Shown here piece by piece: positions 4,301 to 23,457 of a stretch of 64,000 bases of DNA (position 1 is the stretch's first letter; each line of letters opens with the position of its first letter). Under the pieces are notes generated by a model. The model searched no databases. It saw only the letters and a list, made by a program, of their open reading frames with translations, and was not told the DNA's origin. Position numbers and translations under genes: made by a program. Source of the stretch: Psychromonas sp. Urea-02u-13. Lineage in GTDB: Bacteria; Pseudomonadota; Gammaproteobacteria; Enterobacterales; Psychromonadaceae. The stretch is from positions 1 to 64,000 of the forward strand of contig NZ_PJBZ01000041.1 in NCBI RefSeq assembly GCF_002835995.1. Direction: 5' to 3'.

Positions 4301-7300
4301 TAACCATGCTTCTATCAGGTTAAATTGGCAACCTAGTAAAACAATCGATTTAATTCTTTTTACATTTTTATCTTCCAAATTTATACTTGTGCTTGAAAAG
4401 GTACTTAAAAACACTTGGTACAAAGATAGCCAAAAATGACAGCTACTCCGTAAAGTTTTACCACCTGCATTTATATCTTCGGTATTAACTTTATTTAAAT
4501 GAGAAAACCATTCTAACGGTATACGATTCAAGGTCGCCTTAATAGCATTCCCATACAGCTGAAATAAACCACCACCAATCGTAGAAGAAACTTTATTGTC
4601 TAAACGTAAACGCATTAATTGCGTCTCCATCTCAGAAATAAAAGCATATGAATATTCGTCTAATTTATTATTGCCCTCCGGAAATTTTTCTAATAAATTT
4701 AACGTTCTTTCTATTGTTAACGGTAACTGTTTTGTAAAATTCGAAAAAACAGGTTTTGAAAAATAAATAGAGCCATTTAGTTTATTAAGCGAATTTTTAA
4801 GCAATCTTGTTTGTGGTGTTTCAAATACATTATCAGCGTCTTCATTTACACTGGCATATTGATCTAATTCTCTTGTGAATCCCAAAATGTCAGTTAGAGC
4901 GGTACCTGCTTGCCAGTATTGACTATTATGATTTGGAATCTGTAATGGCCTTAATCCCATTCCACCATTACGGATAAAAGCTTGTGGGTATGAATGATTC
5001 ATATTCGATGGCGAGATAATACAAACTGGATTATCTACAAAGTCTCCAACTTTAGAGGGTAACACCTTCATCGCTAAGTTGGACCAAGTCGGAACTCTAG
5101 ACCCTCCTTCATTACATTGTAAAATTGATCTATAGGTATTTGCGGTCCATTTTAAAATATTCGTATCGATAATTTCTAGCATGTTGGGAGGTGACGATAG
5201 AATATTTTTAGCTGAATTCAATGATGAAGCATTGGCAGTCTGAATTAAAACCTGACCTTGATTTTCTGGTGACTTTTCCTTCCAATCAGTTCGAGTAGAG
5301 CTTAAATCTGAAGATACAAATATATCTGAATAACCTATTTCACCATCGGTACTTAACCGTATTAACCCTGAAATATCAGAACTTTGCTCTCTATCTACCG
5401 AACACCCATAAATTGTATTTTCATCAATTGTTGGCAACGGAGTTATTAATTTATAATCACAACTGCCAATGCTCGCATTAATTAACCCATTCCACCTTTT
5501 TGACAATACATCTATTAATTGAGAGTCAGATGTTAAATTACATATAAAATGTAATGCCCTGATTGCAAGATTATTATCTGGATCTTGCATGGCCTTCGTG
5601 TGTGAATCATCTAAAAAAAGATTAAAAAGTTTAATTGATTCTGAAAGATCATTTTCTACCAATGCTAATGCTTCTATCTCTCCTGATATTTGCTTTAATA
5701 CATCATGTTTTATCGAAATATCAGAAGGCAAAGTACTAAACTTTAAATATATCGACTGTAGCAATATGCACAATGATCTTAATATATATTCCCTTGGCAT
5801 TTCTAATTTTTGAATGTTTGTATTTTGCTCACAAATCAATTCTGTAATATGGGTTCTAATTAAACTTAACTTTAAATCATCATTATTTAACTGCGAATTC
5901 ATATCAGAGATTGAGCGTTCAATTTTTTCACTTGATGATGTAGTAAAATTATATTGCCTTGCATGCCATAATAAATTTGTCCGTTTTTGCCAATAAGTTC
6001 TTGTTAACTCGATTTTACTCGATCCCCAACCACCACTGTTTATTAATCCTTGGTCAGACAATATGCCTATAAGATTGTGATCCTTAATTAGATTAATAAT
6101 TTTTACTCTTACATCTAATTTAATTCTTAATTGATTTTCATCTAAATTGGCATCAGTCCAAGAATTTCGTTCTATAACCTGGTCTAAACCGTCTAAGGCA
6201 AGTAAAAGAGGATCTTCCCAAGGACATTCTATTGGGTTTAATTTTTGGTTTAAGTGAGATGTAACTTCATCCCACAAATTTTTATAATCAACAATTAACG
6301 TTGAAATTTCTATATTTGTACTTTTACTTTCTATAATTACCGCAAACCAAATCCATTTAGTTAATTTTTTGATATCAGAAAATCGTAATTGCTTTCCATG
6401 CGCTGCCAAATTTATTTTTAATTTTATCGTAGCAATATCATCGGTATACAGTTGCTTATTATTAAGTAAACCTAAGGCTTCGTACCTTTCAATTTTTTCT
6501 ATAAATTCAATGTCTTCAATTTCTACTAATTCTATATTGCCATCGGGACCAGATGAAGCTAATGCTTTTCCTTGTGTCAAATATAATTCAAACTCTTCAG
6601 CAGACATAGGCATTGGCTGTTCTTTTGCTATCAACTCTAGCTCTAAATTATTAACAGCATCTTCAACTACTACTCTAAGTTGTGCCAACAATGTAGTATC
6701 TTCAGCCAGTAAAACCATATCATCAACATAACGTGCGTACCAGACAGGGCAATAGCCAGCAGAATCGTTGTGCTTTTCTAAAAATTCCCGCGCGACATGA
6801 TCAACTTTGAAAAGGACTAAATTAGCTAGAAATGACGAAAGATCAGGCCCTTGTGGGATACCTTGAAAATAATCAGATTGTTGGACTTTACCCGTTTTAG
6901 GATCATATTTTTCGTAACCAAAACTCTGCTCTAATAACCAATTAATAATCTCAACTTTTTTATCCTCTGCTTTCACTTTAAATAAAGTCATAAAACTATC
7001 GTCTGTCACTTCATCAAAATTGGCAGGCAAACAGTCCCTTAATGCATTTTGCACAACATGTCGTTTCAATCTGTCGTAATAACGTTTTAAATCCAACCTC
7101 ACCATATTAACTTGAGGCATTTTGCTTGCCGCATTGTTTATAGATTTAGTAAACTCTTTCCAGCAGTCGAAATATGGTCTAAACATTCCTGACGTTTGCG
7201 GTACATCACGGCCTTCGACTATTTCCATATCAATTTGATACGCAAAACTTAGTGTTGTCTCATAAGGTATATTTCCGCCTTCTCCAGTGGTTATGGTTAT

Positions 7301-9127
7301 TTTACTTTTACTGTAATAGCGTGTTGCAGGTATATTTAAACTGAAATTATCTATATTGTCGTGTCGCTCAGTTAGCAACTCACTTAATATATATTGGTGA
7401 GACGTTAAATCCTCCAAACAATGCTGAGACATCTCTCGAAATTCCTCACCACCAATATCCCTTGAAACTCGAATTGTATTTAAAGGTTCAATTGGTTTTA
7501 AATCACCTTTAAATACATAAAATCGATCGATTAAAATCATTTCAAGGGCAGAGAAGCACATTTCAACACGTCGCCATTCGGCATCATTAGCAGGGAATGT
7601 TCCGGTACGTGCCATAGAAGATTTTGCAATTGAAAATGCTAATTGTAATCGTTGGCTTTGTTGATAAATAAAACTTTCATCAGAATATACATTTGGAGTG
7701 CTGTGAATATGACTAGCGCTCTGTAAAAATTTAAACCATTCACTTTGATCATATTCTTTTGCATAATTATCTAGAGAAAATTCGGCTTGTGTATGAGCAA
7801 ATAACTTATTCCACTCTTTTGAAGCTCTTATTTTCAAAGAGTATGGAAGGTCTTTGTAATAATCGTTATTTTGAACTTCTTCTGTAGAAATACTTAGTTG
7901 GTTGGCAAGAAATAACGCAGGTAAAGGGTATTCTATCTTATCTATTTTTTCTTCAGCTTCTTTGCAAGTTAAGACTCCCTTCAAATATAAATCAGGATCA
8001 ACTTTTTTACTATCTATTGAGTGAATAACCCTCATTTCGAAGTCACCCGGATTACTAATTTTGTAAAGTTTTTTGATGGCACTAGCTGTTGCTCTAACAC
8101 CTGCACTATCATTATCGAAAAATAGATTAACCTCTAGCAATTTACCGGTACGGCTCAGTTGTAACGCTAAATCATAAATAGATTTACATTGATTTTCTGA
8201 TAAGTTTGCACCAAGTATAGAAACGGCAGGTAAGCCCCATCTTTCAAGCCTAATAGCGTCAAATAACCCTTCACAGACATAGAGTTTTACTAGCTTCTCC
8301 TTGTCTTGGCGTATGTTTTTAAATGCAAATTCCGAACGATATAATAGGCTGGATTTGTTTAAATTTTTAGTAAATAGGTATTTTGGACCAAGATCTATAT
8401 CTGTAAGCCTACCAGCAAAGCCTTTAAGCACGCCTTCACTGGTTCGAATAGGAAACAATAAGCGGTTATTTCTAAAGTGATCATAATACAAATTATCTAA
8501 TAGCAAATTCTTTGTTTTATTTACTTCATTTATTATTTTAGAGCGTTTAATCAATCCTGCACTTTCGTATAAATCAAATACAGAAAGTTTATGGGTATCT
8601 ACAGGATATTCTAAAGAGTTAAGGTGAGTAACAAGTGAATGTTGCCCAGCAATACATAAGTCTGCTTTCTTAACAAAATCTAGGTCATATTCTCTTTCTG
8701 ATAAATATCGGTTAAATTGACTTTCATTTTGGGTACTCTTAAAGAATTCTAAAGCATATTCATAAGCATTCTTTGTGATTTTATCATATACCGTTATCGC
8801 CTTATTTTTACTTCTAGAACTACTTCGGGTAACTGTTACATTATACTCATTAGCAAGCCATTTATGTGCTTCGCTAAAGGTTATACCTTTATTTTCTTTG
8901 ACAAGAGCAAAGATATCTCCATGGGCTCCACATGAAAAACAATGGTATTTAGAAACTCCGTCCGGATTGTTGTCGTATAGCTCCATTGAAGGCTTTGTAT
9001 CTGGATGAAATTGACAAATAGCTTTGATGCTATTCCCACTTCCTTTAGTTTCAATGCCTAATTTTTCACATAAACTATCTAATGAGACTGTAGTTAAAAG
9101 GGTGTTGGTAGCGTCTTTAAAATTCAT
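1331..9127 (-). CDS. DnaG-like primase / reverse transcriptase / nitrilase fusion (putative DRT defence protein)
   Basis: A 2,598-residue multidomain protein. Residues 38-66 hold a CHC2 zinc finger as in DnaG (C38, H41, C63, C66). Residues about 215-255 match the DnaG core (FRNNRLLFPIR..GFAGR..PKYLFTKN), and 282-350 a Toprim domain (E286, D290, D338-N-D340). An RT follows: motif A LDLKRYYDRL with D679, the GIPQGPDLSSF motif at 756-766 and YVDD at 800-803. About 950 mostly helical residues lead to a 15-residue repeat tract (1861-2004), then a nitrilase domain with E2116, K2190 or K2191, and C2389 as probable catalytic triad; the K-C gap is about 160 residues longer than usual. RT plus nitrilase is the layout of UG1/DRT1-type antiphage reverse transcriptases, which are about half this size. 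The weak AAGAAG ribosome site supports the start. Defence function is inferred. Confidence 0.9.
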   Translation of the reverse strand: MNFKDATNTLLTTVSLDSLCEKLGIETKGSGNSIKAICQFHPDTKPSMELYDNNPDGVSKYHCFSCGAHGDIFALVKENKGITFSEAHKWLANEYNVTVTRSSSRSKNKAITVYDKITKNAYEYALEFFKSTQNESQFNRYLSEREYDLDFVKKADLCIAGQHSLVTHLNSLEYPVDTHKLSVFDLYESAGLIKRSKIINEVNKTKNLLLDNLYYDHFRNNRLLFPIRTSEGVLKGFAGRLTDIDLGPKYLFTKNLNKSSLLYRSEFAFKNIRQDKEKLVKLYVCEGLFDAIRLERWGLPAVSILGANLSENQCKSIYDLALQLSRTGKLLEVNLFFDNDSAGVRATASAIKKLYKISNPGDFEMRVIHSIDSKKVDPDLYLKGVLTCKEAEEKIDKIEYPLPALFLANQLSISTEEVQNNDYYKDLPYSLKIRASKEWNKLFAHTQAEFSLDNYAKEYDQSEWFKFLQSASHIHSTPNVYSDESFIYQQSQRLQLAFSIAKSSMARTGTFPANDAEWRRVEMCFSALEMILIDRFYVFKGDLKPIEPLNTIRVSRDIGGEEFREMSQHCLEDLTSHQYILSELLTERHDNIDNFSLNIPATRYYSKSKITITTGEGGNIPYETTLSFAYQIDMEIVEGRDVPQTSGMFRPYFDCWKEFTKSINNAASKMPQVNMVRLDLKRYYDRLKRHVVQNALRDCLPANFDEVTDDSFMTLFKVKAEDKKVEIINWLLEQSFGYEKYDPKTGKVQQSDYFQGIPQGPDLSSFLANLVLFKVDHVAREFLEKHNDSAGYCPVWYARYVDDMVLLAEDTTLLAQLRVVVEDAVNNLELELIAKEQPMPMSAEEFELYLTQGKALASSGPDGNIELVEIEDIEFIEKIERYEALGLLNNKQLYTDDIATIKLKINLAAHGKQLRFSDIKKLTKWIWFAVIIESKSTNIEISTLIVDYKNLWDEVTSHLNQKLNPIECPWEDPLLLALDGLDQVIERNSWTDANLDENQLRIKLDVRVKIINLIKDHNLIGILSDQGLINSGGWGSSKIELTRTYWQKRTNLLWHARQYNFTTSSSEKIERSISDMNSQLNNDDLKLSLIRTHITELICEQNTNIQKLEMPREYILRSLCILLQSIYLKFSTLPSDISIKHDVLKQISGEIEALALVENDLSESIKLFNLFLDDSHTKAMQDPDNNLAIRALHFICNLTSDSQLIDVLSKRWNGLINASIGSCDYKLITPLPTIDENTIYGCSVDREQSSDISGLIRLSTDGEIGYSDIFVSSDLSSTRTDWKEKSPENQGQVLIQTANASSLNSAKNILSSPPNMLEIIDTNILKWTANTYRSILQCNEGGSRVPTWSNLAMKVLPSKVGDFVDNPVCIISPSNMNHSYPQAFIRNGGMGLRPLQIPNHNSQYWQAGTALTDILGFTRELDQYASVNEDADNVFETPQTRLLKNSLNKLNGSIYFSKPVFSNFTKQLPLTIERTLNLLEKFPEGNNKLDEYSYAFISEMETQLMRLRLDNKVSSTIGGGLFQLYGNAIKATLNRIPLEWFSHLNKVNTEDINAGGKTLRSSCHFWLSLYQVFLSTFSSTSINLEDKNVKRIKSIVLLGCQFNLIEAWLKAIVFESEALNSGTLNEYKNIDIIEQLSELPLEAELTIEVETLILRQKTEENSVKDLGEYYLSLLKDKATQNSFNEITPLGWYILALVKKNILISSGKNVSTPTEYLKELFDEPALLNLLSFKYETDENEVWPIEHTLPTINIETIISQLNILDYISSNDAFDYVSQNIITVAKNKRFSYEASKCNFQNDWFIRKWQVDIAASTANDNKPYYNNIENELVSSWTETHHDNKPIYISSCGNLYGQILIQVSDSSAEKVVIAPEEAGDSSAEEVVIAPEEAGDSSAEEVVIAPEEAGDSSAEEVVIAPEEAGDSSAEKVVIAPEEAGDSSAEEVVIAPEEAGDSSAEEVVIVPEEAGASSAEEVSTAPEEASDSSAEEVSTAPEEAGDSFAEEVVIDTTSEYSENNNKKFSNKPFDEKIWRKLEEIQKNMNTKAWSSRKVNKSPSHVRIALLQLELKGQFGQGYDLPTSKTQIADVDNYKYEEMRRQAVLTKAISSCEKLGVDLLILPEYSVQPDTIEWLKKQLIKKDISILAGTYRLPNGYSNEKLIELTNSNYAESVKPYQAIMSLLIPYNEGVICLNRAKKYASAAADELIYPHQYPINPLFTINNFEKEALRSIESLESKLENELDQLKKETIFSTEINKIRELISGIKPSFSIDDIEELFKIPHVRPLHYLQELICAELFLLTNPINYMNLASEFKNLCNKFGVLNSNNPQESFAEVQKDIETLSGNLSGINKDTGRGFQPYRRSIIAIPAMTSRKADYWIFGQSAMLANGCSTIFCNSVYGRHSTGGSCFIGLDSWLEKDEQTFITPYSGWSKGIYYGNKKDTLDKEQALLVVDIDPLMMSLGKPRPQSLPVPMKLVAHVPIIEIPKMGTEDFQLIKDDKYSKNILLATAYKGTLEAFEKLEAVLKPNEIINPENKKTQEAIKKFIHMIEQHKHITESCKDRIRHWKENWEKNPQVGIPTLTDWISVQIPTKEMWELDNEIDKNA
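3116..3547 (-). repeat. 45-bp tandem repeat inside the RT-nitrilase gene
   Basis: Nine full copies and a partial tenth of a 45-bp unit encode SSAEEVVIAPEEAGD with small changes (E/K at position 5; VVIA, VVIV or VSTA in the middle). The copies near the 3' end of the gene differ most. All units are exactly 15 codons, so copy-number change keeps the frame. The tract is acidic and Ser/Pro/Ala-rich and looks like a flexible linker between the helical region and the nitrilase. Confidence 0.95.
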
Positions 9128-9633: not shown

Positions 9634-9765
9634 AAGAATAAACCAACTGAATAGAGATCTCATTTTTTAAATTACTTTGTTGTTCAACAAAATGCAAAAC
9701 CAATGGTTTTACACCTAATATAGCCTGAAATTAATGATTGTATCGGGCGGTGACTTTTTTTCAAA

Positions 9766-9837
9766 GTGGTACCAAAAGTGGTACCAAAAGTGGTACCAAA
9801 AGTGGTACCAAAAGTGGTACCAAAAGTGGTACCAGAA
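9766..9837. repeat. Six-copy 12-bp repeat GTGGTACCAAAA
   Basis: Copies begin at 9766, 9778, 9790, 9802, 9814 and 9826; five are perfect and the sixth ends GTGGTACCAGAA. Each contains the 6-bp palindrome GGTACC. The 12-bp period is the same as the TACAC arrays in front of the integrase start (12069) and at the right junction (23335). An arm-type protein-binding array left by an integrated element is the likeliest reading; the frame through it (repeated WYQK) is not considered a gene. Confidence 0.9.
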
Positions 9838-9894
9838 CAAAACAAGAATAAAAATACCTCTAACTATCAACGACTTAAGAATAATTCAGTCATT

Positions 9895-9913
9895 CCCCCA
9901 TCTCCACCACCTA
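9895..9913 (+). repeat. Attachment-like site, tmRNA 3'-end type
   Basis: CCCCCATCTCCACCACCTA matches the sites at 11945 and 23438. The motif has the form of a tmRNA 3' end (acceptor-stem strand CATCTCC plus encoded CCA). No upstream T-loop sequence adjoins this copy, so it looks like an attR-type remnant of a deleted element. Confidence 0.65.
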
Positions 9914-10341
9914 AAAAAAGATCGTGACACTCATAAACTTAAATTGTTAGTTACTTGATTTAATTGCATTTAAAATAGCTATTCACTATTTTCACAGCGA
10001 ATCTAAGTGGTGGCACAAACTCCCGTTTAAGTTTTCCTTGGCCAGTTAAGCACTTCAGCAACACCTGACATGGAGCGAATTATGCAACAGCATAGTGCAA
10101 TGAGCGCGTTAAGCTCTGCGTACGCTTTGTCAGGTGTAAGATCAGAAGTGCTTAATTGGACAAGATGAGAAAACTTACGGGCAGTTTTCTTTTGGTTCTG
10201 TTTTCTTTGTCTGTATGAAAGAAGCTTACTACTTCACACTGCGAAACTGCGTTTCGGTTGTTCATTCGCTACTCGCCTACAGGCGAAACCTCTGATCATT
10301 AAGATTAAATTCTGCATCGATGAGCGCAAGCGACCTATAAA
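9895..10341 (+). repeat. Long direct repeat, copy 1 (partner 23438-23888)
   Basis: About 447 bp nearly identical to 23438-23888, beginning at the attachment-like core. Inside is an imperfect inverted repeat (about 10036-10145) whose arms carry TTAAGCACTT and ACACCTGAC. Both copies stand immediately right of an ATCTCCACCACCTA site, so the segment either is native DNA downstream of the target gene, duplicated by successive insertions, or is a mobile repeat that prefers this site. Confidence 0.9.
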
Positions 10342-10384
10342 CTAAAAAACTGCGAGATGTTAGTCAAAAAGGCTCGAGTGTCCT
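9920..10384. repeat. Non-autonomous element with GGACACCC-type ends, longest copy
   Basis: The left end reads GATCGTGACACTCATAAAC and the right end GTCAAAAAGGCTCGAGTGTCC; cleaner copies nearby show ends GGACACCCA and TGGGTGTCC, which are inverted repeats. This copy is about 465 bp without a transposase. A matching left end recurs at 23466 and a matching right end at 151-177. Confidence 0.6.
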
Positions 10385-11821: not shown

Positions 11822-11838
11822 GACGACGGTTCGACTCC
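11822..11838 (+). repeat. T-loop-like half of the attachment site (left)
   Basis: GACGACGGTTCGACTCC has the T-arm form of tmRNA and tRNA genes (GGTTCGACTCC) and matches GACGGCGGTTCGACTCC at 23311. It lies 107 bp left of the ATCTCCACCACCTA core, so the two halves of the target have been separated. Confidence 0.5.
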
Positions 11839-11944
11839 CCAATAGGAATATAGAACCCACATTTTGTACCACAGATTTTAGAATAAAATTTCGAGAGCCA
11901 TATATTACAGATAGTTACGCTAGGTTGGTGGAGACGGTGAGAAT

Positions 11945-11964
11945 CCCCCCATCTCCACCACCTA
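11945..11964 (+). repeat. attL-like site of the 11.5 kb element
   Basis: CCCCCCATCTCCACCACCTA, identical over 20 bases to 23438-23457. Just upstream, GGTGGAGA (11937-11944 region) can pair with TCTCCACC. Followed within 140 bp by an integrase gene, the usual arrangement for elements inserted at the 3' end of an RNA gene. Confidence 0.75.
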
Positions 11965-11993
11965 TGAGGTTCTAAAGTATTAAGAACCGACTA

Positions 11994-12038
11994 AAGCCTG
12001 TCATATCAGCTACCACTGATGTTACAGGCTTTTTTTAT
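11994..12038 (+). terminator. Rho-independent terminator after the attachment core
   Basis: AGCCTGT and ACAGGCT form a stem (about 11995-12030) followed by seven T's; a smaller hairpin GGTTCT..AGAACC (11969-11989) precedes it. This is what would be expected downstream of an RNA gene 3' end carried by the element. Confidence 0.7.
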
Positions 12039-12068
12039 ACCTATAGTTTTTGTTCTAAATGCCATTTT

Positions 12069-12104
12069 GCTACACAACCTGCTACACGAGGTGTTACACA
12101 AATG
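12069..12104 (+). repeat. Three 12-bp direct repeats abutting the integrase start
   Basis: GCTACACAACCT, GCTACACGAGGT and GTTACACAAATG follow one another exactly, and the last three bases are the integrase ATG. The same three-unit array followed by ATG occurs at 23335-23370. Integrase arm-type binding or autoregulation sites are likely. Confidence 0.75.
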
Positions 12105-13559
12105 GCCATCTCCACCAATCTAGCTCTACGCAATAATACTTACTATTTCCGCAAACGAATTCCCTCTGACCTAATTAATCTACTAAAAAAGAAAGAGTTC
12201 ACTGTATCTTTAAAAACAAGTAAACTATCTACTGCGCTTGTAATGACAGATAAACTACTGACTAAAGTAGAGAATCAATTCAAAAGATTAAGGTCACATA
12301 AAATGAGTAAAGGCGGTGTTTACGTTTATGAAGGCACTGCAGTGCTTAATGAGGATAATGGGAAGACTGTGTCAATTCCTTCAATTCGCCAATCAGTAAC
12401 AGCTTCTGACGGTACTAAAACAGAGTTCGTTATTGACCACAATGGAGATGTTGAGGCTGAACGAGAATCAATGTTGCAACTAATTCGTGCAAATATGAGT
12501 AAACCCCCTGCCCCAGTAATTAAACATACCTTAAAACACGTAGTTGATGAATACATTAAATCCAAGCAAGCAAGTGGCTCTCTTAATGAAAAAAGCCTTG
12601 AGTCATACATCAATAGTTTGAAACTGCTTATTGAATACTTTAGTGCTGATTTTGACCCAAGTGAAATAAAGCTTATTAAAGCAGAAGACTTCAGAAACAT
12701 TCTAATGAAGTTACCGCCTAACCGTAATAAAGCAAAGGCACTAAAAGGCTTATCATTACAAGAGATGTCCGAATTAGGATTAGAACCACAATCAGCAACA
12801 ACTGTTAAAGGTTGCGTTGAACGTTGTAGTACTTTTTTTGATTGGGCTGTAAAAGCTGACTTCGTGGATAAAAACTACTTCCACAAGATGAATATTCCGA
12901 TGAAAAAGAAAAAAGAATCAGCAAGTCGAGAACGTTGGATCGATAAAGACCTCAAAACACTATTCAGCACTGATATATACACTAAACACGAAATGGAGCA
13001 CAGCTATTACTACTGGTTACCATTGCTTGGTTTATACACTGGCGCACGAATTAATGAACTAGCTCAACTGCAAACTAGTGACGTTAAGAAAATTGATGAT
13101 ATTTTATGTATTTTTATATCTGCTGATGGTGATGGCCAAAAACTTAAAAATGCTAACTCAGAGCGTATTATTCCAGTACATCAGCACTTAATTGACCTTG
13201 GTTTTATTGATTATGTACAAAACCGTAGTAAGGAAATCCGTTTATTCGCAGGTTTACTTAACAATAAAGGTGAAGTACCTCGTGATGGTTTTAGCACTAA
13301 AGTTAGTAAATGGTTCAACAAATACATTAAGCGCTTCGGCATTAACAATGTTGTATTTCATAGTTTTAGACACACTGTTGCTGATGAATTTAAACAAAAA
13401 CAAGTGCCTGAAACACAAGCAATGGGAATACTTGGTCATAAATCTCAATCAATTACTTATGCGAGATACGGTAAGGATTTGAATGTAAAAATTCAGAAAG
13501 AGACTATTGATTACTTGGACTTTATTGCAGTGTTGGAAAATGTTAAGAAGTGGGAATAA
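12102..13559 (+). CDS. int: Tyrosine recombinase/integrase of the 11.5 kb element
   Basis: 485 residues. The N-terminus (LALRNNTYYFRKRIPSDL) is the DUF6538-type arm-binding domain found in many island integrases; a SAM-like core-binding domain spans about residues 145-260. The catalytic domain follows, with the first Arg in GLYTGARINELAQL, HSFRH (His-x-x-Arg) and LGHKSQSITYARYGK, which gives the second His and the nucleophilic Tyr. All key residues are present, so the enzyme should be active in strand exchange at the flanking sites. The ATG is fixed by the 12-bp repeat array. Codons 2-6 contain CCATCTCCACCA, the attachment core itself. Confidence 0.95.
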   Translation: MAISTNLALRNNTYYFRKRIPSDLINLLKKKEFTVSLKTSKLSTALVMTDKLLTKVENQFKRLRSHKMSKGGVYVYEGTAVLNEDNGKTVSIPSIRQSVTASDGTKTEFVIDHNGDVEAERESMLQLIRANMSKPPAPVIKHTLKHVVDEYIKSKQASGSLNEKSLESYINSLKLLIEYFSADFDPSEIKLIKAEDFRNILMKLPPNRNKAKALKGLSLQEMSELGLEPQSATTVKGCVERCSTFFDWAVKADFVDKNYFHKMNIPMKKKKESASRERWIDKDLKTLFSTDIYTKHEMEHSYYYWLPLLGLYTGARINELAQLQTSDVKKIDDILCIFISADGDGQKLKNANSERIIPVHQHLIDLGFIDYVQNRSKEIRLFAGLLNNKGEVPRDGFSTKVSKWFNKYIKRFGINNVVFHSFRHTVADEFKQKQVPETQAMGILGHKSQSITYARYGKDLNVKIQKETIDYLDFIAVLENVKKWE

Positions 13560-13681
13560 AGTGACAATGCATTATCGAGTATGTGAAATAAACTCCACAT
13601 AAAAACCTTATTTTAATCAAGGGCTTGATTTTAAAACTAGCGCCCCCAACTCTTAATGTCTGATGTTTTAAGGAGTAATAT

Positions 13682-14944
13682 ATGACGATTCACAGTGACT
13701 TTAAATCTTTTTTAATAAACCTCCAAATAAAAGAGGCAGGCCAAATTAGCAGTCGATATGGCAGTATTACACGTCGATTAAACATGCATTTTCGTGATAC
13801 TGAAAGCCGAACATCACATAGCTTACAAGTAGGTTCTTATGGTCGATATACTGGAATAGATGGAATATCTGATTTAGACATGCTTTATATAATGCCCTCT
13901 ACTTCTTGGGATTTATATAAGAATGACCAATCCGGATTACTTGATGCTTGCAAAGAGCAAATTAGAAAGACTTACCCTTCTACCGAAATCAAGAAGGATC
14001 GTAATGTCGTTGTTGTACGTTTCGCTAAATTCCTAATTGAAGTCGTCCCAGTCTTTGAGCAAGTAGGAAAAAAGTATAAGTATCCTGATACGTACAAAGA
14101 TGGTTCTTGGAAGATATGCGATCCTAATGCAGAAATGAAAGCATTTAAAGATAAAAACTCTGAAAGAAACAATAACTTAAGAGCCCTTGCTAGAATGGTT
14201 CGTGCATGGCGCAATAGAAACAATATAGAGATGAGTGGATTTTTAATTGATACTCTGTGTTATCGATTCATCACTGATAATGAAGGTTTTGATAAATCTA
14301 GCTACGGAAAATACGATATTTTGGTAAGAGACTTCTTTGAGTTTTTATCAAATGAACCTGTTCAGAGTTTTTACTTTGCTCCAGGTAGCAACTCAAAAGT
14401 TAAGGTTAAAAAGAATTTTCAAAGTAATGCAGAAACGGCAAAGGAAGCTTGTGATAACGCTATATCAACACGCCAAGAACAAAAAGAGAGTATGTGTACA
14501 CTGCATTATAGAAGTGTGTTCGGAAACAAGTTCCCGAACGCCATAACAGTTACTAAAACAACTACAGAAGAATTTATTCAAGATAAGTACACTTTGAATT
14601 TAAAACATCGCATTTCATTAGATTGTGAAATAAAAAATGATAGCATGACAAGATTTTTATCTCGTCTTTTAAACGCTAAACAAAAAATATCACAAGAAAG
14701 ACAATTGAAGTTTATAGCCAACAACATAGATATTATCGGAGAGTTTAAAGTTGAATGGAAAATCCTTAATCAAGGTAAATTTGCAGAAGATAATCATAAA
14801 ACTCGAGGAGAAATATTGGATGATGATGGATCTAAAACCAGAAATGAAAGATCAAAATTTAATGGTGAACACTTAGTTGAGTGCTACGCGATACAAAATG
14901 ATGTAGTTGTTGCTAGAGAAATAATAGAAGTACCTATCGCTTAA
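13682..14944 (+). CDS. CD-NTase (SMODS) with C-terminal AGS-C domain, CBASS cyclase
   Basis: 420 residues, preceded by AAGGAG. The nucleotidyltransferase signature GSYGRYTGIDGISDLDML gives GS at 51-52 and D64/D66; the third acidic position is probably E120 in FLIEVVPVF. These are the residues that bind metal and NTP in cGAS/DncV-like enzymes, which make cyclic oligonucleotides when phage infection is sensed. The last 100 residues or so (LKFIANNIDIIGEFKVEWKI..) match the AGS-C sensor domain often fused to SMODS enzymes. The next gene, 14 bp downstream, encodes a SLATT membrane protein, a known CBASS effector type. No HORMA/TRIP13 or E1/E2 genes are nearby, so it would be a minimal (type I) system. 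Nucleotide product not predictable. Confidence 0.9.
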   Translation: MTIHSDFKSFLINLQIKEAGQISSRYGSITRRLNMHFRDTESRTSHSLQVGSYGRYTGIDGISDLDMLYIMPSTSWDLYKNDQSGLLDACKEQIRKTYPSTEIKKDRNVVVVRFAKFLIEVVPVFEQVGKKYKYPDTYKDGSWKICDPNAEMKAFKDKNSERNNNLRALARMVRAWRNRNNIEMSGFLIDTLCYRFITDNEGFDKSSYGKYDILVRDFFEFLSNEPVQSFYFAPGSNSKVKVKKNFQSNAETAKEACDNAISTRQEQKESMCTLHYRSVFGNKFPNAITVTKTTTEEFIQDKYTLNLKHRISLDCEIKNDSMTRFLSRLLNAKQKISQERQLKFIANNIDIIGEFKVEWKILNQGKFAEDNHKTRGEILDDDGSKTRNERSKFNGEHLVECYAIQNDVVVAREIIEVPIA

Positions 14945-14958
14945 TACGGACGATTGAC

Positions 14959-15636
14959 ATGACAGAACAAACACTTAAAAAACAAATAGCCAGAGAATAT
15001 TACAATGTAATCTATGGGGCCAAATTACAGCTTTCTTCTTTAGATATTTGTGAAAAGCTACCAAGTGTTATTAGCTTTTTATCATTATCAGTAGGAATCC
15101 TTACGCTATCTTTTGAAGTATTTAATAACAAAGCACTTGCTTCATTTATATTAATAGCAGGTGTTATTGGATTAATGCTTAGACCAAGAGAATCACAAAA
15201 ACCTTTATACCAAACTGCAGGTAGTGAGCTAACTGACATTAGTAAAAAGCTTGAGTTACTTCATTCGCGTGTAGATGAATCAGATCCAGAGTCAGAATCG
15301 AATGGGAGAGCTGAATTGGAAAGACTTCAACTCGAGCATAGTCAAGTACACCTCCCTCCTCCTATTTTATTATCTTCATGGTATGCGCATTACAAAGTAT
15401 TCTCAGAACAAAATAACAAATGGTTTTGTAATGAACTAAATTTGATATGGAAAGATAAGGTTCCACTTACATTTAGGGCATCTATTTTATTATCCTTGAT
15501 AATGGTACTTCTATATATCAACCCATACTGCATTATTAGTAGTACTTGGGATTGCATAAATGCACCTTGCTCAGAGACTTGTTGGAGCAAGAGTATTTGT
15601 GAAAATGATAAAGTTAACTTACCTGAAATCCAATAA
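14959..15636 (+). CDS. SLATT-domain membrane effector of the CBASS pair
   Basis: 225 residues. It has an N-terminal amphipathic helix (LKKQIAREYYNVIYGAK), two closely spaced transmembrane segments (about 36-54 and 59-74) and a following helix LYQTAGSELTDISKKLELLHSR, which together are the SLATT layout. A third hydrophobic segment lies near residues 168-192. SLATT proteins are thought to form pores when a nucleotide second messenger arrives, causing abortive infection. It is co-transcribed with the CD-NTase (14 bp gap). The SLATT subfamily is not assigned; the family call rests on layout and context. Confidence 0.8.
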   Translation: MTEQTLKKQIAREYYNVIYGAKLQLSSLDICEKLPSVISFLSLSVGILTLSFEVFNNKALASFILIAGVIGLMLRPRESQKPLYQTAGSELTDISKKLELLHSRVDESDPESESNGRAELERLQLEHSQVHLPPPILLSSWYAHYKVFSEQNNKWFCNELNLIWKDKVPLTFRASILLSLIMVLLYINPYCIISSTWDCINAPCSETCWSKSICENDKVNLPEIQ

Positions 15637-16093
15637 GTTACTACTAAACGAGTTCCTTAACTCAAACGATAATAAGTAATCCATAAATTGTAAAATAAGC
15701 AAAACCGAGCACACTATGATAGCTGAATTTTGTTCCGCCTGAGTTATTATCTATTGGGATTTATGTACACCCAGAGCAACTTAAAAGTTATCAATCACTA
15801 TCTTGATATGAACTGTATTTACTAAGTAAAGGTTATCTTTGCTTAGTTTCTACAACCCTTTGATTTTTTCAATAGACCGTTCTTTTTAAAAACAACTACC
15901 TTTAGCAATCTGAAGCTGTTGGATAGCTATCCCACTAGTCCCGCCCTATCTTTGTAGAATCACTTGTTCCAATGACGTTTAACAGTGAAATCCTAATACA
16001 TTATGCAATTACTGTTTTAGTTGTTTGTCGATAGCATAACTTCACTGCATTTGTTGAACCTAAATAGTCCGTATACACATAAGGAGCAACCCA
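15637..16093. other. Intergenic region after the CBASS pair
   Basis: 457 bp with no credible gene on either strand. It presumably contains the promoter of the small gene at 16094. No repeats shared with other parts of the window were noticed. Confidence 0.5.
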
Positions 16094-16240
16094 ATGACTA
16101 TTTCAGAAGTAATTAATATTTTAGAACTAAATCACGATACGCAAGACGTGGCATCACTATTCAATCGTGACTGCAAAATCGACGGCTATACGCGAGAAGA
16201 TGTTGAGCAGTATGATAGTTTCTTAGAAGATTTCAGCTAG
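16094..16240 (+). CDS. Small acidic hypothetical protein (48 aa)
   Basis: An ATG preceded by AAGGAG with 7 nt spacing opens a 48-codon frame, MTISEVINILELNHDTQDV.., ending LEDFS. The product is acidic (many D and E) and predicted helical; no family is recognised. A strong terminator begins 17 bp after the stop. The ideal ribosome site and terminator argue it is a real gene; accessory-element regulators or anti-host proteins are often of this kind, but no function can be given. Confidence 0.6.
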   Translation: MTISEVINILELNHDTQDVASLFNRDCKIDGYTREDVEQYDSFLEDFS

Positions 16241-16256
16241 AGATAATAGAATATAG

Positions 16257-16285
16257 AAAAGGCCACTCAATTGAGTGGCCTTTTT
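16257..16285. terminator. Bidirectional terminator
   Basis: GGCCACTCAA and TTGAGTGGCC form a perfect 10-bp stem flanked by A's on the left and T's on the right, so it serves the rightward 48-residue gene and the leftward recombinase. Confidence 0.85.
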
Positions 16286-16287
16286 GC

Positions 16288-16842
16288 TTACATTGCCTTT
16301 TTCACAGTTTGAACTGTACTAGCATTGCAACCGAGTTTCGTTGCTGTCTTACGGATGCTTAAGCCTTTATCTAACTCTACTTTAATTAGTGAGTGTAATT
16401 CACTGTTAGCTTTACGGCCTTTATAAACTCCTTTAGCCTTGGCTTTAGCGATTCCCTCAGCTTGACGTTCTTTTATCATACTACGCTCGAATTGAGCTAC
16501 AGCACCGAGCATTGTGAGCATCAGTTCATTCATTGCAGTGTTGTTCTCACTACTAAACTCTAAGCTTTCTTTGTGGAATTTTACCGATATGTCATTTGCA
16601 ATCCATTCTTTAACAAGTCCCTGTAAATCCATCAAGTCACGTGCGAGCCGATCAATTGAATGAACATGTACTGTATCGCCTTTACGTAAGTAACGACGCA
16701 TCTCTTCAAGTTTAGGTCTGTTAGTTGTTCCTGCACTGCACTTATCTGTAAATGTCTCGTTAAATTCAATTCCAGTATCAGCTAATTGTCTATCTGTGTT
16801 CTGCTCAGTTGATGAAACTCGAATATAAGCTACTTGTGACAT
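16288..16842 (-). CDS. Serine recombinase (resolvase/invertase family)
   Basis: 184 residues, the usual length. The N-terminal catalytic domain begins VAYIRVSSTEQNTDRQL with the nucleophilic serine at about position 10; later come the conserved IDRLARD and the FERSMIKERQAEGIAKAKAKG region that leads into the long helix E. The C-terminal HTH is LSIRKTATKLGCNASTVQTV. It could resolve cointegrates of an element or invert DNA; no invertible segment was seen beside it. It ends against a shared terminator and reads toward the CBASS genes. Confidence 0.93.
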   Translation of the reverse strand: MSQVAYIRVSSTEQNTDRQLADTGIEFNETFTDKCSAGTTNRPKLEEMRRYLRKGDTVHVHSIDRLARDLMDLQGLVKEWIANDISVKFHKESLEFSSENNTAMNELMLTMLGAVAQFERSMIKERQAEGIAKAKAKGVYKGRKANSELHSLIKVELDKGLSIRKTATKLGCNASTVQTVKKAM

Positions 16843-17356
16843 TATTAATTCCTGTATGCATTAAAGCGTATGGTTTTGCCTCTAGAGATTCGAATTATAC
16901 GTATGGATTTTTTAAAAGTAAACCCTAAAACACACACTAATCTGTATGCCTTCACTGTACGACTATAGGTATACCCAAACCAATACAAACTGTGGAAATC
17001 CAAATTTTATGGAAACCTTGTGATTCTTTGTTAAAGCTTATGCTGATTTAGCAGTAGTAAAACAGTAATGAACTTACATTGTCGCTCACGCTAAAAGAAC
17101 AGGTGTTTACTTTCACTAAAATCCACCAGCTACCCACTTTTTATCAAATCAATAAACCGAGCAATATAGTTACTCAGTTTATTGGTTCAGGACAAAATAT
17201 ATGAGTGAGTATTCAAGAAGCAACATAGTGCAGTGTGCAAATGAGCCATTTTGTTGTTGAATGCAGTGTTATTAATTTCAATTATTTTCACAAGTACCCT
17301 TGTATATCAAAATATCACGGTCATATTAAGGAACATACAATAGGTTATAAAAAAAG
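16843..17356. other. Intergenic region with a decayed gene start
   Basis: 514 bp without a credible gene. Near 17201 an ATG opens MSEYSRSN.., resembling the start of the MSEYAKMISVG gene at 17940, but it stops after 19 codons. AAGTACCCTTGTATATCAAAATATC at about 17291 has a close relative at 17819. The stretch looks like degenerate copies of the following duplicated unit. Confidence 0.45.
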
Positions 17357-17621
17357 ATGTTCTTTAATGACGAATTACGAAAGTTAGTAGTGTCTAATAT
17401 TGATGATAAAACGTGGACTCAAAGCATAATGCTATCAGGAGAGCCTGGCAATGGAAAAACCCTGTTCGCAGAGGTGCTTAAAGAGCACCTCAATGTCCAA
17501 GACTGCAATTACCATCGCTATGCTAGCGGGTACGTGCTTCGCAATTTCTGACAAATACGATATTTGTGTTATTTACGATTTATATATCCAAGGGAAGATT
17601 AAAGAGAGAAAGATTAGATAA
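17357..17621 (+). pseudogene. Frameshifted fragment of a P-loop ATPase
   Basis: The first frame (17357-17551) has a Walker A motif SGEPGNGKT at about residues 27-35, then stops after 64 codons. A second frame overlapping the end continues ISDKYDICVIYDLYIQGK with a Walker B-like hydrophobic strand ending in D, and stops at 17621. Joined, they would make only about 88 residues, so the gene is both shifted and truncated. AAA-type ATPases of this kind occur in replication or defence genes; no partner remains here. Confidence 0.5.
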
Positions 17622-17672
17622 TATTAAATACAGGCTTGAAAACCGAAAAAAAGCCAGTATCTATTAAGTACA

Positions 17673-17816
17673 CAAGTGGTTATAAAAAAAGATTCACCCC
17701 ATTAACTATAACCCGCTCAATAAACGAGCACACTTGGAGGCATAATTATGTCTGAATATGCAAAAATGATTAGCGTTGGTTCTTTGAATGTTGAGATTCA
17801 ACTGAAAGAATTTTCT
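17673..17816 (+). repeat. 144-bp direct duplication, copy 1
   Basis: This differs from 17865-18008 by one base. It contains the promoter-proximal region, the GGAGG ribosome site and the first 23 codons of the gene at 17940. Confidence 0.95.
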
Positions 17817-17819
17817 TAA
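17748..17819 (+). pseudogene. Truncated duplicate of the following gene's start
   Basis: Begins MSEYAKMISVGSLNV, one residue different (E for K at position 16) from the full gene, and stops after 23 codons where the duplication ends. It keeps a good ribosome site, so a short peptide could still be made. Confidence 0.7.
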
Positions 17820-17864
17820 GTGCCCTTGCATATCAAAATATCCCTCTCATTTACTATATATCAC

Positions 17865-18008
17865 CAAGTGGTTATAAAAAAAGATTCACCCCATTAACTA
17901 TAACCCGCTCAATAAACGAGCACACTTGGAGGCATAATTATGTCTGAATATGCAAAAATGATTAGCGTTGGTTCTTTGAATGTTAAGATTCAACTGAAAG
18001 AATTTTCT
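17865..18008 (+). repeat. 144-bp direct duplication, copy 2
   Basis: Second copy, 192 bp downstream of the first, leading into the intact gene. The 48-bp spacer contains the AAATTC-poor sequence GCATATCAAAATATCCCTC, related to one near 17300. Confidence 0.95.
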
Positions 18009-18518
18009 GAAACAAGCACACAGCTACAACAAGTATGTTGCACCTACAAAACTGACGATTGGCCTTTTGGCACTATGGGAAGTGTTGATGCTGTAGCTGA
18101 TAAAGAAGTTGATATATTTCTATCTACACTTGATGTTAAAAACTTTGAATTAGTTTTTTCATTCCGCTTGGATAATATCAGATGCTTAGTGTACTCAAAC
18201 GCAGACAGATATGAATCTGACTGGTCTGTTATGGGTGTCATGGGTCATGGTGCTATGCGTTCACGTAACATCAAACAATCCCTACTAGAAAAAGATTGGC
18301 TAACATCGCGTGTGGTTGATTTGATGGCGTGGTGGAATGGTGCTGAAATGTGTGCCGATGCACAACTGCTAGCAGAAACTGGATACACTATTGATCGTGT
18401 ACTTGAAGAATTTGGTGGTGAAGTTCACACAGTCGAAGCGTGTACTGAGTGCGGAAAGTATATTATCCCTGATTCTTTTGGTGATGTAGATAAATGCGTA
18501 TGTGTGGAGGCGAAATAA
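17940..18518 (+). CDS. Hypothetical element protein with C-terminal zinc ribbon-like motif
   Basis: 192 residues, preceded by GGAGG. The body has no recognised domain; it is acidic with aromatic-rich segments (SDWSVMGVMGHGAMRSRN, LMAWWNGAEMCADAQLL). The end carries CTECG..KCVCV, a possible zinc-binding hook. Its stop overlaps the ATG of the next gene (TAATG), so the two form a coupled pair. A partial copy of its start lies just upstream. Function unknown; accessory-element gene by context. Confidence 0.7.
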   Translation: MSEYAKMISVGSLNVKIQLKEFSETSTQLQQVCCTYKTDDWPFGTMGSVDAVADKEVDIFLSTLDVKNFELVFSFRLDNIRCLVYSNADRYESDWSVMGVMGHGAMRSRNIKQSLLEKDWLTSRVVDLMAWWNGAEMCADAQLLAETGYTIDRVLEEFGGEVHTVEACTECGKYIIPDSFGDVDKCVCVEAK

Positions 18519-18859
18519 TGCAGGGATCAATTGAAATTAAAGACCAGTACGGATCAGTGTTTATATACTTGCACAGCTCAGAACGCGATTTAGATGTAAG
18601 ACTTAAAGACCCAATTAAGTTTGCTTTAAGTACGCGCAGAGCAAGGGATCACGCATATTTTGCTCGCATTATATTAAGTCGCTTAATGAATCAAGATAAT
18701 GCCCTGTTAGATGATAACGGATACGGCTTAAGCGGAAGTTCGATGGCTAATGATGTGTTCACTATTGATTGCGATGCAGGGACAATATTCAGCTACGATG
18801 ATGTGTATGATGTTGATTGTTCACTAGTGGATTTTCTAAAGCTTAAGCCGAAGTTTTAA
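18518..18859 (+). CDS. Hypothetical protein coupled to the preceding gene
   Basis: 113 residues from the ATG in the TAATG overlap, which has GGAGG 8 nt upstream; an in-frame ATG at 18494 inside the preceding gene is less likely. The product (MQGSIEIKDQYGSVFIYL..) is acidic with several predicted strands, and no family is recognised. It ends 45 bp before a strong terminator, so 17940-18859 is one transcription unit. Confidence 0.65.
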   Translation: MQGSIEIKDQYGSVFIYLHSSERDLDVRLKDPIKFALSTRRARDHAYFARIILSRLMNQDNALLDDNGYGLSGSSMANDVFTIDCDAGTIFSYDDVYDVDCSLVDFLKLKPKF

Positions 18860-18903
18860 GGAAATTACGGTACTTTAAGCAATTTAGGGTACTTACACTG
18901 CGT

Positions 18904-18944
18904 GCGCAGAAATGGCTGATTTTCAGCCATTTCTGCGCGTTTTT
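18904..18944 (+). terminator. Strong rho-independent terminator
   Basis: GCGCAGAAATGGCTGA pairs perfectly with TCAGCCATTTCTGCGC (16 bp, 3-base loop), followed by GTTTTT. Ends the 17940-18859 unit. Confidence 0.85.
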
Positions 18945-19058
18945 AGCTAAAATAAGCACTGAATCCTGCCAAAAATGAACTACGATTTTCTATTTTCAGG
19001 TGAATTCAGTTTTATTTTAAATCTCCTAATACGTCACTAATTTGATTGCTCTTTTGCT

Positions 19059-19135
19059 CACCAAAACGCGTAAGTTTGTACGCACCCCTTACTAATATAT
19101 AGTAACGACCTCGTACAAACTTACGCGTTTTGGTG
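19059..19135. repeat. Perfect 24-bp inverted repeat with AT-rich centre
   Basis: The arm at 19059-19082 (starts CACCAAAACGCG) is the exact reverse complement of 19112-19135. The 29-base centre contains a second near-palindrome, TTACTAATATATAGTAA. No T run follows, so it is not a simple terminator. It stands ahead of the HTH/helicase operon and may be an origin, a regulatory cruciform or the remnant of a repeat element. Confidence 0.9.
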
Positions 19136-19266
19136 CGTCTCAAGCACAACAGGCTTAGTGGTTAGCAAATACGATCCACTAATAAAATGTTATAATATAA
19201 AGTAACGCAATATATTGTTTTACAACTAAATAAGGATGGAAGTTATTAAAATATAGGAACTCAGAT

Positions 19267-19455
19267 ATGAACCAGAAAGTAGTAATCAAAAAAGGCCGTA
19301 AGCCTCTTCACACAGACAAAATCCCACAAGTAATTGAACTCTTCAAGCAAGGCAAACCAATGCGCCACATTGCCAAAATTGTAGGCATATCAGCACCAAC
19401 TGTTAGACGTTTACTTGATAACGCAGGCATTACAGAACCAAGTAAGGGCAAGTAA
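19267..19455 (+). CDS. Small helix-turn-helix protein
   Basis: 62 residues; the central segment IPQVIELFKQGKPMRHIAKIVGISAPTVRRLLDNAGI is a clear HTH like the C-terminal domain of resolvases. The basic N-terminus (KKGRKPLHTDK) may add DNA contact. Its stop overlaps the next ATG (TAATG). It begins a three-gene operon and is a candidate regulator or origin-binding protein for the element. That role is inference. Confidence 0.7.
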   Translation: MNQKVVIKKGRKPLHTDKIPQVIELFKQGKPMRHIAKIVGISAPTVRRLLDNAGITEPSKGK

Positions 19456-19625
19456 TGAACTTAGATTTTAGCAAGCCGTTATATGACGCTCTTATCAATG
19501 AAGCAAACAAGCAAGATAAGCCTCTCAAACGCTTAATCACGGATGAATTAAGCAAATTAGTTAACTTAAAAACAGCAAGCACATCAGTCAAGGATGACAC
19601 TTATGGAAACAACAAAAAACGGTAA
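19455..19625 (+). CDS. 56-residue hypothetical protein
   Basis: Coupled at both ends: its ATG overlaps the stop of the HTH gene and its last codons overlap the start of the helicase-like gene. Product MNLDFSKPLYDALINEANK..LKRLITDELSKLVNLKT is helical and charged, with a pattern that could be a short DNA-binding or adaptor helix pair. No family is recognised. Operon position is the main support. Confidence 0.55.
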   Translation: MNLDFSKPLYDALINEANKQDKPLKRLITDELSKLVNLKTASTSVKDDTYGNNKKR

Positions 19626-21402: not shown

Positions 21403-21534
21403 TAAATAAAAAGTTGAATAAAATACAGACAAAACCATTACAGCTGAGGTAGTTTAAAACGCCTCAACTGATCATATAAATTGATTTTATAAGGGATAAC
21501 TACTGGTAAAAACGAGAATTTACACTTCCAAGTT

Positions 21535-21834
21535 TTATTTTAACTTAATAAAACCCAGCTCATATAATAGAACAAGCGAATCACCATAAGATGTTAGTTC
21601 TACATTGTATTCTTGCTCAATCTCATTGAGACATGCATGGAATTCAAAAGCGCCTACTAGGGCATATTCCCCTAGCTCCTTAGCATTCACCTTATAACCA
21701 GATACGCACTTTTCCTTGTCTATACCAAGAATTACGAAATCATACCCAGATGATACTTTATCAGCTATACCAATATCATAACCTGTTATTGATAAGGCGA
21801 TTACCACACCTAGTAATATCAAAATTTTTTGCAT
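21535..21834 (-). CDS. Small exported hypothetical protein
   Basis: 99 residues with an N-terminal hydrophobic segment (ILILLGVVIALSITGY) that would be a signal peptide or anchor. The remainder has two cysteines (EKCVSGY and FHACLNE) that could form a disulfide in the periplasm. No family is recognised. It is the most distal of the leftward exported-protein genes at the right end of the element and has its own upstream region with a hairpin. Confidence 0.55.
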   Translation of the reverse strand: MQKILILLGVVIALSITGYDIGIADKVSSGYDFVILGIDKEKCVSGYKVNAKELGEYALVGAFEFHACLNEIEQEYNVELTSYGDSLVLLYELGFIKLK

Positions 21835-21863
21835 TTCACTTAACCTTTACTATTTTATCTGTT

Positions 21864-21905
21864 ATTTGGTAACTTACTTAAAACTAAAAAGTATGTTACC
21901 AAAAT
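21864..21905. repeat. Inverted repeat ATTTGGTAAC / GTTACCAAAAT
   Basis: Ten-base arms separated by 21 bp, lying 30 bp upstream of the leftward exported-protein gene. It could be an operator or a weak terminator for the lipoprotein genes. Confidence 0.5.
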
Positions 21906-21940
21906 GGAAAATTAGGATTTACACTACGAACTTTATTGAG

Positions 21941-22063
21941 TTACATAATTAAATCTAAACACTTCAAATTAGCATAACCTAGTGCGTAGTTACTCTCGTC
22001 CTTACTTGCTCCATAACCAACCGAATTAGTCTTATGTAGCTTCTTGGCTGTTATAAGCCTCAT
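21941..22063 (-). CDS. 40-residue peptide coupled to the lipoprotein gene
   Basis: Its ATG overlaps the stop codon of the upstream lipoprotein gene (TAATG). The product MRLITAKKLHKTNSVGYGAS..NYALGYANLKCLDLIM is basic at the start and contains one Cys. The coupling suggests it is translated. No function is assignable. Confidence 0.4.
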   Translation of the reverse strand: MRLITAKKLHKTNSVGYGASKDESNYALGYANLKCLDLIM

Positions 22064-22488
22064 TACTTCTCTCGTTCTATAAGTTCTTTATATTCCAGTT
22101 CGATCTCGGCCTGCAGGATATCTGCTTTAATAGTGTTTAATTTACCACGGTATAACTTTGACCAATCATCCAAGCGAGTAGCCTCTTTGTATGTACATTC
22201 AACCTCTTGCGTTAGTTTTAAATCTCCGCATGGTTCCTTACCTTCAGGGTATCGTGTCGCTTTCACTTCATCCATCACCCCATCATATTGATTAACTTTA
22301 TCCTTGTTAGATAACTCATAACTAACATGTGTCATAATAACGAGACTAGCAACACCAGCTGCATTTTTGATGCTTAGCTTGTGTATCTGCTTTGCTTTCC
22401 ACAGATCCTCTTGCGTCGCTTGTGGCTCCTGAACCATGCAACCACTTAGTAATACGAATACCGACACAGCTAAAAGTAATTGATTCAT
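22063..22488 (-). CDS. Hypothetical lipoprotein
   Basis: 141 residues with a lipoprotein signal (LLLAVSVFVLLSGC, lipobox LSGC with Cys17), so probably attached to the inner or outer membrane. The mature part is helical with two further cysteines in EPCGDLKLTQEVECTYKE. It starts 10 bp after another lipoprotein gene. There is no known family; surface exclusion or phage exclusion are possible roles for lipoproteins in such elements but nothing in the sequence shows it. Confidence 0.7.
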   Translation of the reverse strand: MNQLLLAVSVFVLLSGCMVQEPQATQEDLWKAKQIHKLSIKNAAGVASLVIMTHVSYELSNKDKVNQYDGVMDEVKATRYPEGKEPCGDLKLTQEVECTYKEATRLDDWSKLYRGKLNTIKADILQAEIELEYKELIEREK

Positions 22489-22498
22489 TTTAGAGCCT

Positions 22499-23334: not shown

Positions 23335-23400
23335 GTTACACATTTTGTTACACGAAGTGCTACACAAATGCTATCATCTAGGTTCACAGGCATTAAGAAA
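23335..23400 (+). pseudogene. Remnant start of a second integrase with its 12-bp array
   Basis: GTTACACATTTT, GTTACACGAAGT and GCTACACAAATG repeat the arrangement in front of the active integrase, with the last three bases being ATG (23368-23370). Codons after it (MLSSRFTGIKK..) do not match an integrase beyond the first few, so almost the whole gene has been deleted. Confidence 0.55.
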
Positions 23401-23420: not shown

Positions 23421-23455
23421 GGTGGAGATGCGCGTTTCCCCCCATCTCCACCACC
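23421..23455. repeat. Hairpin GGTGGAGATG / CATCTCCACC around the attachment core
   Basis: A 10-bp perfect inverted repeat whose right arm is the attachment core, so the core can fold as a tmRNA-like acceptor stem. The equivalent at 11937 has 8 bp. Confidence 0.65.
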
Positions 23456-23457
23456 TA
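23438..23457 (+). repeat. attR-like site of the 11.5 kb element
   Basis: CCCCCCATCTCCACCACCTA, identical to 11945-11964, marking the right boundary of the element against chromosomal DNA. Confidence 0.75.

Follow-up and report, generated by a model that had tools for sequence, protein, structure and literature searches.

Three-unit 12-bp arrays at both ends of an ssrA island as probable arm-type sites of a DUF6538 tyrosine integrase

The arrays of 12-bp units that flank an ssrA-associated island of Psychromonas sp. Urea-02u-13 are very probably arm-type binding sites of the island's own integrase, a tyrosine recombinase with a DUF6538 domain. Judged from the sequence, a single island of ~11.5 kb, 11944-23457, inserted at ssrA, has its ends marked by the two arrays of the window (the whole 64,000-nucleotide stretch analysed here). 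By comparison the arm role is well supported, and binding by the integrase, the number of molecules involved and repression of the integrase gene are what we infer. The features on which the argument turns are these:

9763..9834, + strand: six perfect 12-bp units (AAAGTGGTACCA, i.e. TGGTACCAAAAG), 58 bp ahead of the att core at 9893
9893..9913, + strand: third att core copy, with one mismatch; right end of an upstream island
11944..11964, + strand: left island end, att core copy TCCCCCCATCTCCACCACCTA, with which the island restores the ssrA 3' end
11993..12036, + strand: hairpin and T-run behind the restored ssrA end, terminator-like by eye
12069..12104, + strand: integrase-proximal array of three 12-bp units; covers GAGGT, and the third unit ends in the integrase ATG
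12102..13559, + strand: 485-aa tyrosine integrase with DUF6538 (residues 6-64) and Phage_integrase (residues 302-457)
23335..23370, + strand: far (right-end) array of three 12-bp units, in the orientation of the near array
23421..23452, + strand: inverted repeat GGTGGAGATG-N12-CATCTCCACC around the right core, found by eye
23437..23457, + strand: att core copy, right island end

How regular are the arrays? The first-pass annotation had described three units reaching the integrase start, and these are real: the near array consists of GCTACAC (12069), GCTACAC (12081) and GTTACAC (12093), the G-Y-TACAC word being exact in all three units while the 5-base spacers vary (AACCT, GAGGT, AAATG). The integrase ATG (12102-12104) forms the final three bases of the third unit, and GAGGT is a ribosome-binding-like stretch ahead of it. 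The second array that had been pointed out is present too, with GTTACAC at 23335 and 23347 and GCTACAC at 23359, and its third spacer likewise ends in ATG. A two-unit pattern has four matches in the window, every one exact; when up to two mismatches are tolerated, shuffled versions of the window have a mean of 1.01, and a count of four is attained in 3 out of 100. A search of all 320 contigs of the genome (4.75 Mb) with the three-unit pattern gave three exact matches plus one with two mismatches on contig C291, the same pattern read backwards has a single match at up to two mismatches, and all four forward sites adjoin the 3' end of ssrA (tmRNA) or a copy of it. Chance was rejected as the origin of the arrays on the strength of the shuffles, the backward pattern and the family control windows given below. 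The arrays were also considered as coding sequence and rejected, as 12102 is the first in-frame ATG, GTG or TTG after a stop (ORF finder) and a further array, on contig C20, runs into a TAA just ahead of its ATG. A host-protein site was set aside in turn, the array word varying among islands within one genome.

ssrA proper lies on C20. A 17-base stretch over its 3' end is found exactly at window positions 9896, 11947 and 23440, and with two mismatches on C291; the cores at 11944 and 23437 are identical 21-bp copies. Scans of the window for tRNA genes and with Rfam (gathering thresholds) returned nothing, and a terminator scan flagged none at 11993-12036, where the hairpin resembles one behind the true ssrA on C20. 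Within the window, an ssrA-end copy is followed by hairpin, array, integrase, a CBASS pair and other genes, the second array and the second ssrA-end copy; the order on C20 is ssrA, terminator-like hairpin, array and integrase, the last broken into two pieces that are 59% and 63% identical to the window's. An integrase protein search of the genome gave four matches, namely the window gene, the two C20 pieces and a 31-residue remnant on C291, and found no further window-like integrase. The C291 locus (C291:15060-15307, G000) is a decayed relative of the island in which an ssrA-end-like core and a degenerate array accompany the 31 residues. The predicted attP would be composed of the far array, 66 bp, the 21-bp core, 104 bp, the near array and the integrase gene. 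The inverted repeat at 23421-23452, which has a shorter counterpart (GGTGGAGA/TCTCCACC) at 11927-11959, may be inferred to hold candidate core-type integrase sites.

Two further observations concern the surroundings of the cores. Copies of the tmRNA T-arm (GGACGGCGGTTCGACTCC type) lie at 23310-23327 and 11822-11839, at two right ends, ~120-130 bp ahead of the core in question; among the 32 islands introduced below, T-arm-like boxes are found at 6/32 right ends vs 1/32 interior stretches. They are possibly old att halves or additional core-type sites. The flank past the final att core (23456-23888) is duplicated after the 9893 core (9912-10343) with 94% identity, and stretches of it recur at scattered genomic positions (43 matches overall).

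If the arrays belong to the integrase, related integrases should carry them, and the first-pass annotation had asked that they be sought there. Relatives were drawn from two sets: 394 genomes of the same order, 55 of which had a match at E <= 1e-20 and from which the best 30 loci were used, and the best 80 of 465 confirmed relatives obtained with an alignment query. Single-protein scans of genome-contig and viral-contig collections gave no relatives. The 111 loci, some being one contig fetched twice, yielded 124 ORFs, with start codons assigned by rule; 102 retained the N-terminus and 450 bp of upstream sequence, and 88 were left after a 70% identity filter. They were picked by integrase similarity and so do not sample the DUF6538 proteins at random. 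The arrays are not absent: a direct repeat matching at 7 of 8 positions with a lag of 11-13, within 60 bp of the start, precedes 62 of these 88 integrases, and 26 have none at this threshold. Lag 13 dominates (37), followed by lag 12 (20) and lag 11 (6); the other lags from 6 to 24 give 0-5 each, with totals of 4, 1 and 2 for lags 7-9, 16-18 and 20-22. Control windows at -140..-80, -240..-180 and -340..-280 contain lag 11-13 repeats in 6, 8 and 7 of the 88, and shuffles give a mean of 0.6-2.0 per lag. Among the 62, the last repeat ends a median of 6 nt from the start, and three or more copies are present in 6 by the counting rule used. Built from 92 units, the motif is TGGTACAMA-like with 7.4 bits, and the TGYTACACA-type units of the window fit it. 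The earlier statement that the arrays mark integrase starts is true only by half, as arrays also mark the integrase-free island end.

A tRNA or tmRNA gene on the same strand ends within 250 bp ahead of 58 of the 88 integrases (tmRNA in 21 of these), at 66-235 bp from the start (median 95.5 bp). One integrase has an RNA gene on the opposite strand, and none was found for 29, a group in which the window is counted because it holds the ssrA 3' end only. At three loci (L085, L092 and L106) the repeated att block resembles the 4.5S (SRP) RNA gene, and such integrases may thus target that gene besides tRNA and tmRNA genes. In a P4-type control set (PF13356/DUF4102; drawn from 148 genomes of the same order as the best 30 loci, 29 kept after L156 was dropped, not made non-redundant, and including L173, whose chosen start looks wrong), a lag-12 repeat lies within 60 bp of the start in 11 of 29, and other lags in 0-2. 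The array layout may hence be general for integrases associated with RNA genes. The P4-like proteins differ from the window integrase, which lacks PF13356, and the repeats of the DUF6538 set mostly have lag 13 or 12 (37 and 19 of 62).

Does the far end of an island match its integrase start? In a first pass over 12 islands of the same order, a second, downstream copy of the RNA 3' end was found in 8, and repeats resembling those at the integrase start were clear by eye at the far end of six (L025, L026, L027, L029, L030, L032) and less so in L036 and L039. The comparison was then scored over 32 islands with an exact repeat of at least 17 nt beginning at -230 to -60 (L042, one of the 88, was not placed on its long stretch), by taking the best ungapped match of the integrase-start sequence within the 300 bp that precede the far repeat. 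The mean is 13.9 for own pairs, and 8.5, 8.2 and 9.5 for other pairings, interior stretches and reverse complements; none of 100,000 random pairings reached 13.9, the maximum being 10.97. Only 12 of the 32 islands have their own pair as the outright best, partly because the arms share the family motif. The right end of the window island ranks 1 of 32 for its left array, and that of L032, convincing by eye, ranks 21 of 32 by this score. A motif of the left arrays, trained with the right arms excluded though with their own left arms mostly included, reaches at least 8 nats at 18/32 right ends vs 1/32 interior stretches; it scores higher at the right end than in the interior in 27 of 32, and 14 right ends miss 8 nats. 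Where both ends score, the lag is equal at the two ends in 10 of 14 islands (4.6 expected, 0.0008), and in the window the arrays share one orientation at both ends. By sequence comparison, arm sites flank the core on both sides in the window and, though not in every island, across the 32 islands as a set.

Which part of the integrase do the repeats follow? For the left arrays (n=62), array distance correlates with the distance between the first 66 residues (r = 0.364). In partial Mantel tests the link to the N-terminus given the catalytic part is 0.280 (0/4000 permutations), and that to the catalytic part given the N-terminus is 0.064 (698/4000); uncontrolled, the catalytic part gives 0.250 (0/4000). 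The N-terminal partial value is 0.258 (0/4000; reverse -0.020) without the large GTACTAA clade (n=51), and 0.255 (1/4000) when N-termini are below 50% identity (n=47). The right arms offer a cleaner test, since the left array physically abuts the N-terminal codons. There (n=32) the partial values are 0.196 (27/5000) for the N-terminus and 0.080 (932/5000) for the catalytic part, with uncontrolled values of 0.351 and 0.307 (the latter at 1/5000). With the 18 right arms of at least 8 nats the N-terminal partial value is 0.295 (4/5000), and for the 15 of those outside the GTACTA clade it is 0.198 (246/5000), which is borderline. In these comparisons the repeat sequence appears to follow the DUF6538 part, with no significant link to the catalytic part once the N-terminus is held constant. 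The earlier suggestion of integrase arm sites is borne out to this extent, similar repeats being found at both ends of the window island and of many relatives.

Could the arrays serve a recombination directionality factor (RDF, or excisionase) instead of the integrase? Phage 186 Apl and other RDFs are described as binding direct repeats one turn apart (PMC7498355), the location near att fits, and a 62-aa ORF at 19267 has an invertase-type helix-turn-helix match. The repeats nevertheless occur at both ends and their sequence follows the integrase N-terminus, for the left arms and more weakly for the right; moreover, no RDF family was seen among 8 window proteins (Pfam) or 3 (PHROGs), in a scan that covered part of the island ORFs. 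We regard RDF sites as unlikely.

Of 65 aligned proteins, 61 have DUF6538 and 64 have Phage_integrase; R316, K349 and H420 are invariant in the 65 sequences, and R423, H446 and Y456 are at >=90%. We take each of these six residues to have its catalytic role in the RKHRH set with its tyrosine nucleophile. The window integrase matches DUF6538 and Phage_integrase only, with no match to PF13356 (Arm-DNA-bind_3, DUF4102). Its N-domain is predicted to have strands at 7-10, 13-19 and 32-36, a helix at 22-28 and a long helix at 42-69, mostly with pLDDT >90; the arm-binding domains described in PMC8138268 have three strands and one helix. In the VIA alignment the N-domain of a P4-like integrase (3rmp; Z 4.9, 50 residues, 2.1 Å) ranks third and lambda Int (1z1g; Z 4.9, 60 residues, 6.7 Å) fourth, a score that ties with those of unrelated chains at 5.2 and 4.8, and no further integrase arm domain is prominent among the 50 VIA rows. 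A Foldseek search with the N-domain returned nothing significant (best E 0.53). A PDB sequence search with the whole family gave 21 hits whose best stretches all start from profile position >=255, the N-terminal part being unmatched, and NCBIfam matches were all far under the cut-offs. The resemblance of the predicted DUF6538 fold to known arm-binding domains is suggestive only, the structural matches being weak. As a separate matter, five islands (L029, which equals L089, L030, L096, L100 and L122) have a second integrase-like ORF downstream of, and in line with, the integrase that bears the array, and these ORFs match the family profile only from model position ~70-93 onward.

How would the arrays work as arm sites? 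The DUF6538 domain would read the units (TGGTACAMA-like in the family consensus, TGYTACACA or close to it here), with several integrase molecules lying adjacent on units spaced 11-13 bp apart. The catalytic domains would act at the core while DUF6538 holds the arms, and bridging from arm to core would fold the two island ends onto each other when the element integrates or excises. Devices of this kind are already known; the assignment to DUF6538, the regularity and the matched far end are the new part. In phage lambda the neighbouring arm sites P'1-P'2-P'3 lie about one turn apart and are bound by the N-terminal domains of several Int molecules, and the int start is not known to lie at them. 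The integrase of ICEMlSymR7A is of the P4/SXT type and is not known to belong to the DUF6538 type. Like the window island, that element has repeated arm sites on attP beside int; five TGKTGGTATC sites are described in its 283-bp attP, all needed for efficient integration (PMC11963761), compared with two arrays of three in the window. The Dehalococcoides islands presented in PMC3146451 also lie in tandem at ssrA and are bounded by copies of its 3' end; their recombinase is of the serine type, the window's a tyrosine integrase. The term DUF6538 does not occur in the open PMC literature, and no description of such arrays was found there in titles and abstract beginnings.

The near array overlies the ribosome-binding and start region, so bound integrase would likely repress its own gene. 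Autorepression by the near array is plausible from this position and by analogy with integrases in the literature. IntS of ICEMlSymR7A is stated to reduce its own expression by ~25% (PMC11963761). The KplE1 prophage intS is regulated by IntS and TorI, with autorepression shown, and a survey of 1273 RNA-adjacent integrases, based on three Pfam domains that do not include DUF6538, predicted autoregulation for 61.5% (PMC2951348). KplE1 shares with the present family the order of tRNA then int on the same strand ('STI'), and its arm sites overlap the int control region; intS was not derepressed when arm sites were mutated one at a time, P'1 being treated apart in that account (PMC2951348). The KplE1 arm motif contains TAAA and its promoter and transcription starts are mapped in the same article (PMC2951348), whereas a scan of the window at 11900-12200 showed none that is promoter-like on the + strand. 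Might the array then be an operator and nothing else, an autorepressor site at the integrase start with no role in recombination? Its position over the start codon, the short distance of the last repeat from the start in the 62 integrases and the autoregulation of other integrases (PMC2951348, PMC11963761) would agree with this, but matching arrays stand at the integrase-free island end, near the core, here and in other islands, which makes it very unlikely.

That the array at 23335 marks a deleted integrase, as the first-pass annotation had it, is hardly credible: an array with an ATG does resemble an integrase start and C291 shows that such decay happens, but the genome search gave nothing integrase-like past 23370, an att core follows the array at 66 bp as it does at right ends elsewhere, and an integrase is already present at the left end of the island. 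The C291 remnant shows how integrase loss looks in sequence, and nothing of that kind is seen after 23370; the array there reads as the far arm of the same island.

Arm-type sites at both ends lead to the question of how stacked islands are kept apart. The core is common to all islands at one ssrA, and for that reason it gives an integrase no clue as to which ends pair. The array words, by contrast, vary among islands of this genome that have the same core: TGYTACAC on C20 and at 12069/23335, and TGGTACCA six times at 9763-9834. The latter array is probably the expanded right-arm array of another island, and no other exact copy of this six-copy TGGTACC array was found in the assembly. Tentatively, and with more doubt than confidence, we suggest that arm arrays and DUF6538 form an address code that keeps stacked islands apart, in which the two, co-varying beyond the catalytic part, would supply identity. 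If this were true, tandem islands could excise singly, islands with the same word could mobilise each other, and the code would be readable from sequence for the entire DUF6538 family. With the arm-site reading itself, DUF6538, a domain of unknown function, gains a testable job, the reading of arm sites, and a motif to go with it. The pairing of an array at the integrase start with one at the far end offers a sequence-only aid to locate the far ends of islands with these integrases, and to predict which stacked islands an integrase can mobilise.

As for the genes around the arrays, the island cargo includes, at 13682..15636 on the + strand, a CBASS pair made up of a CD-NTase (SMODS + AGS_C) and a 2TM SLATT_6 effector. 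Outside the island, the window encodes on the - strand (1331-9127) a 2598-aa reverse transcriptase of the UG29 candidate-defence type, with PADLOC RT_UG29 matching over nearly its entire length, and this protein has a DnaG-like zinc finger, a Toprim domain and an in-frame 9.7-copy array of 45 bp.
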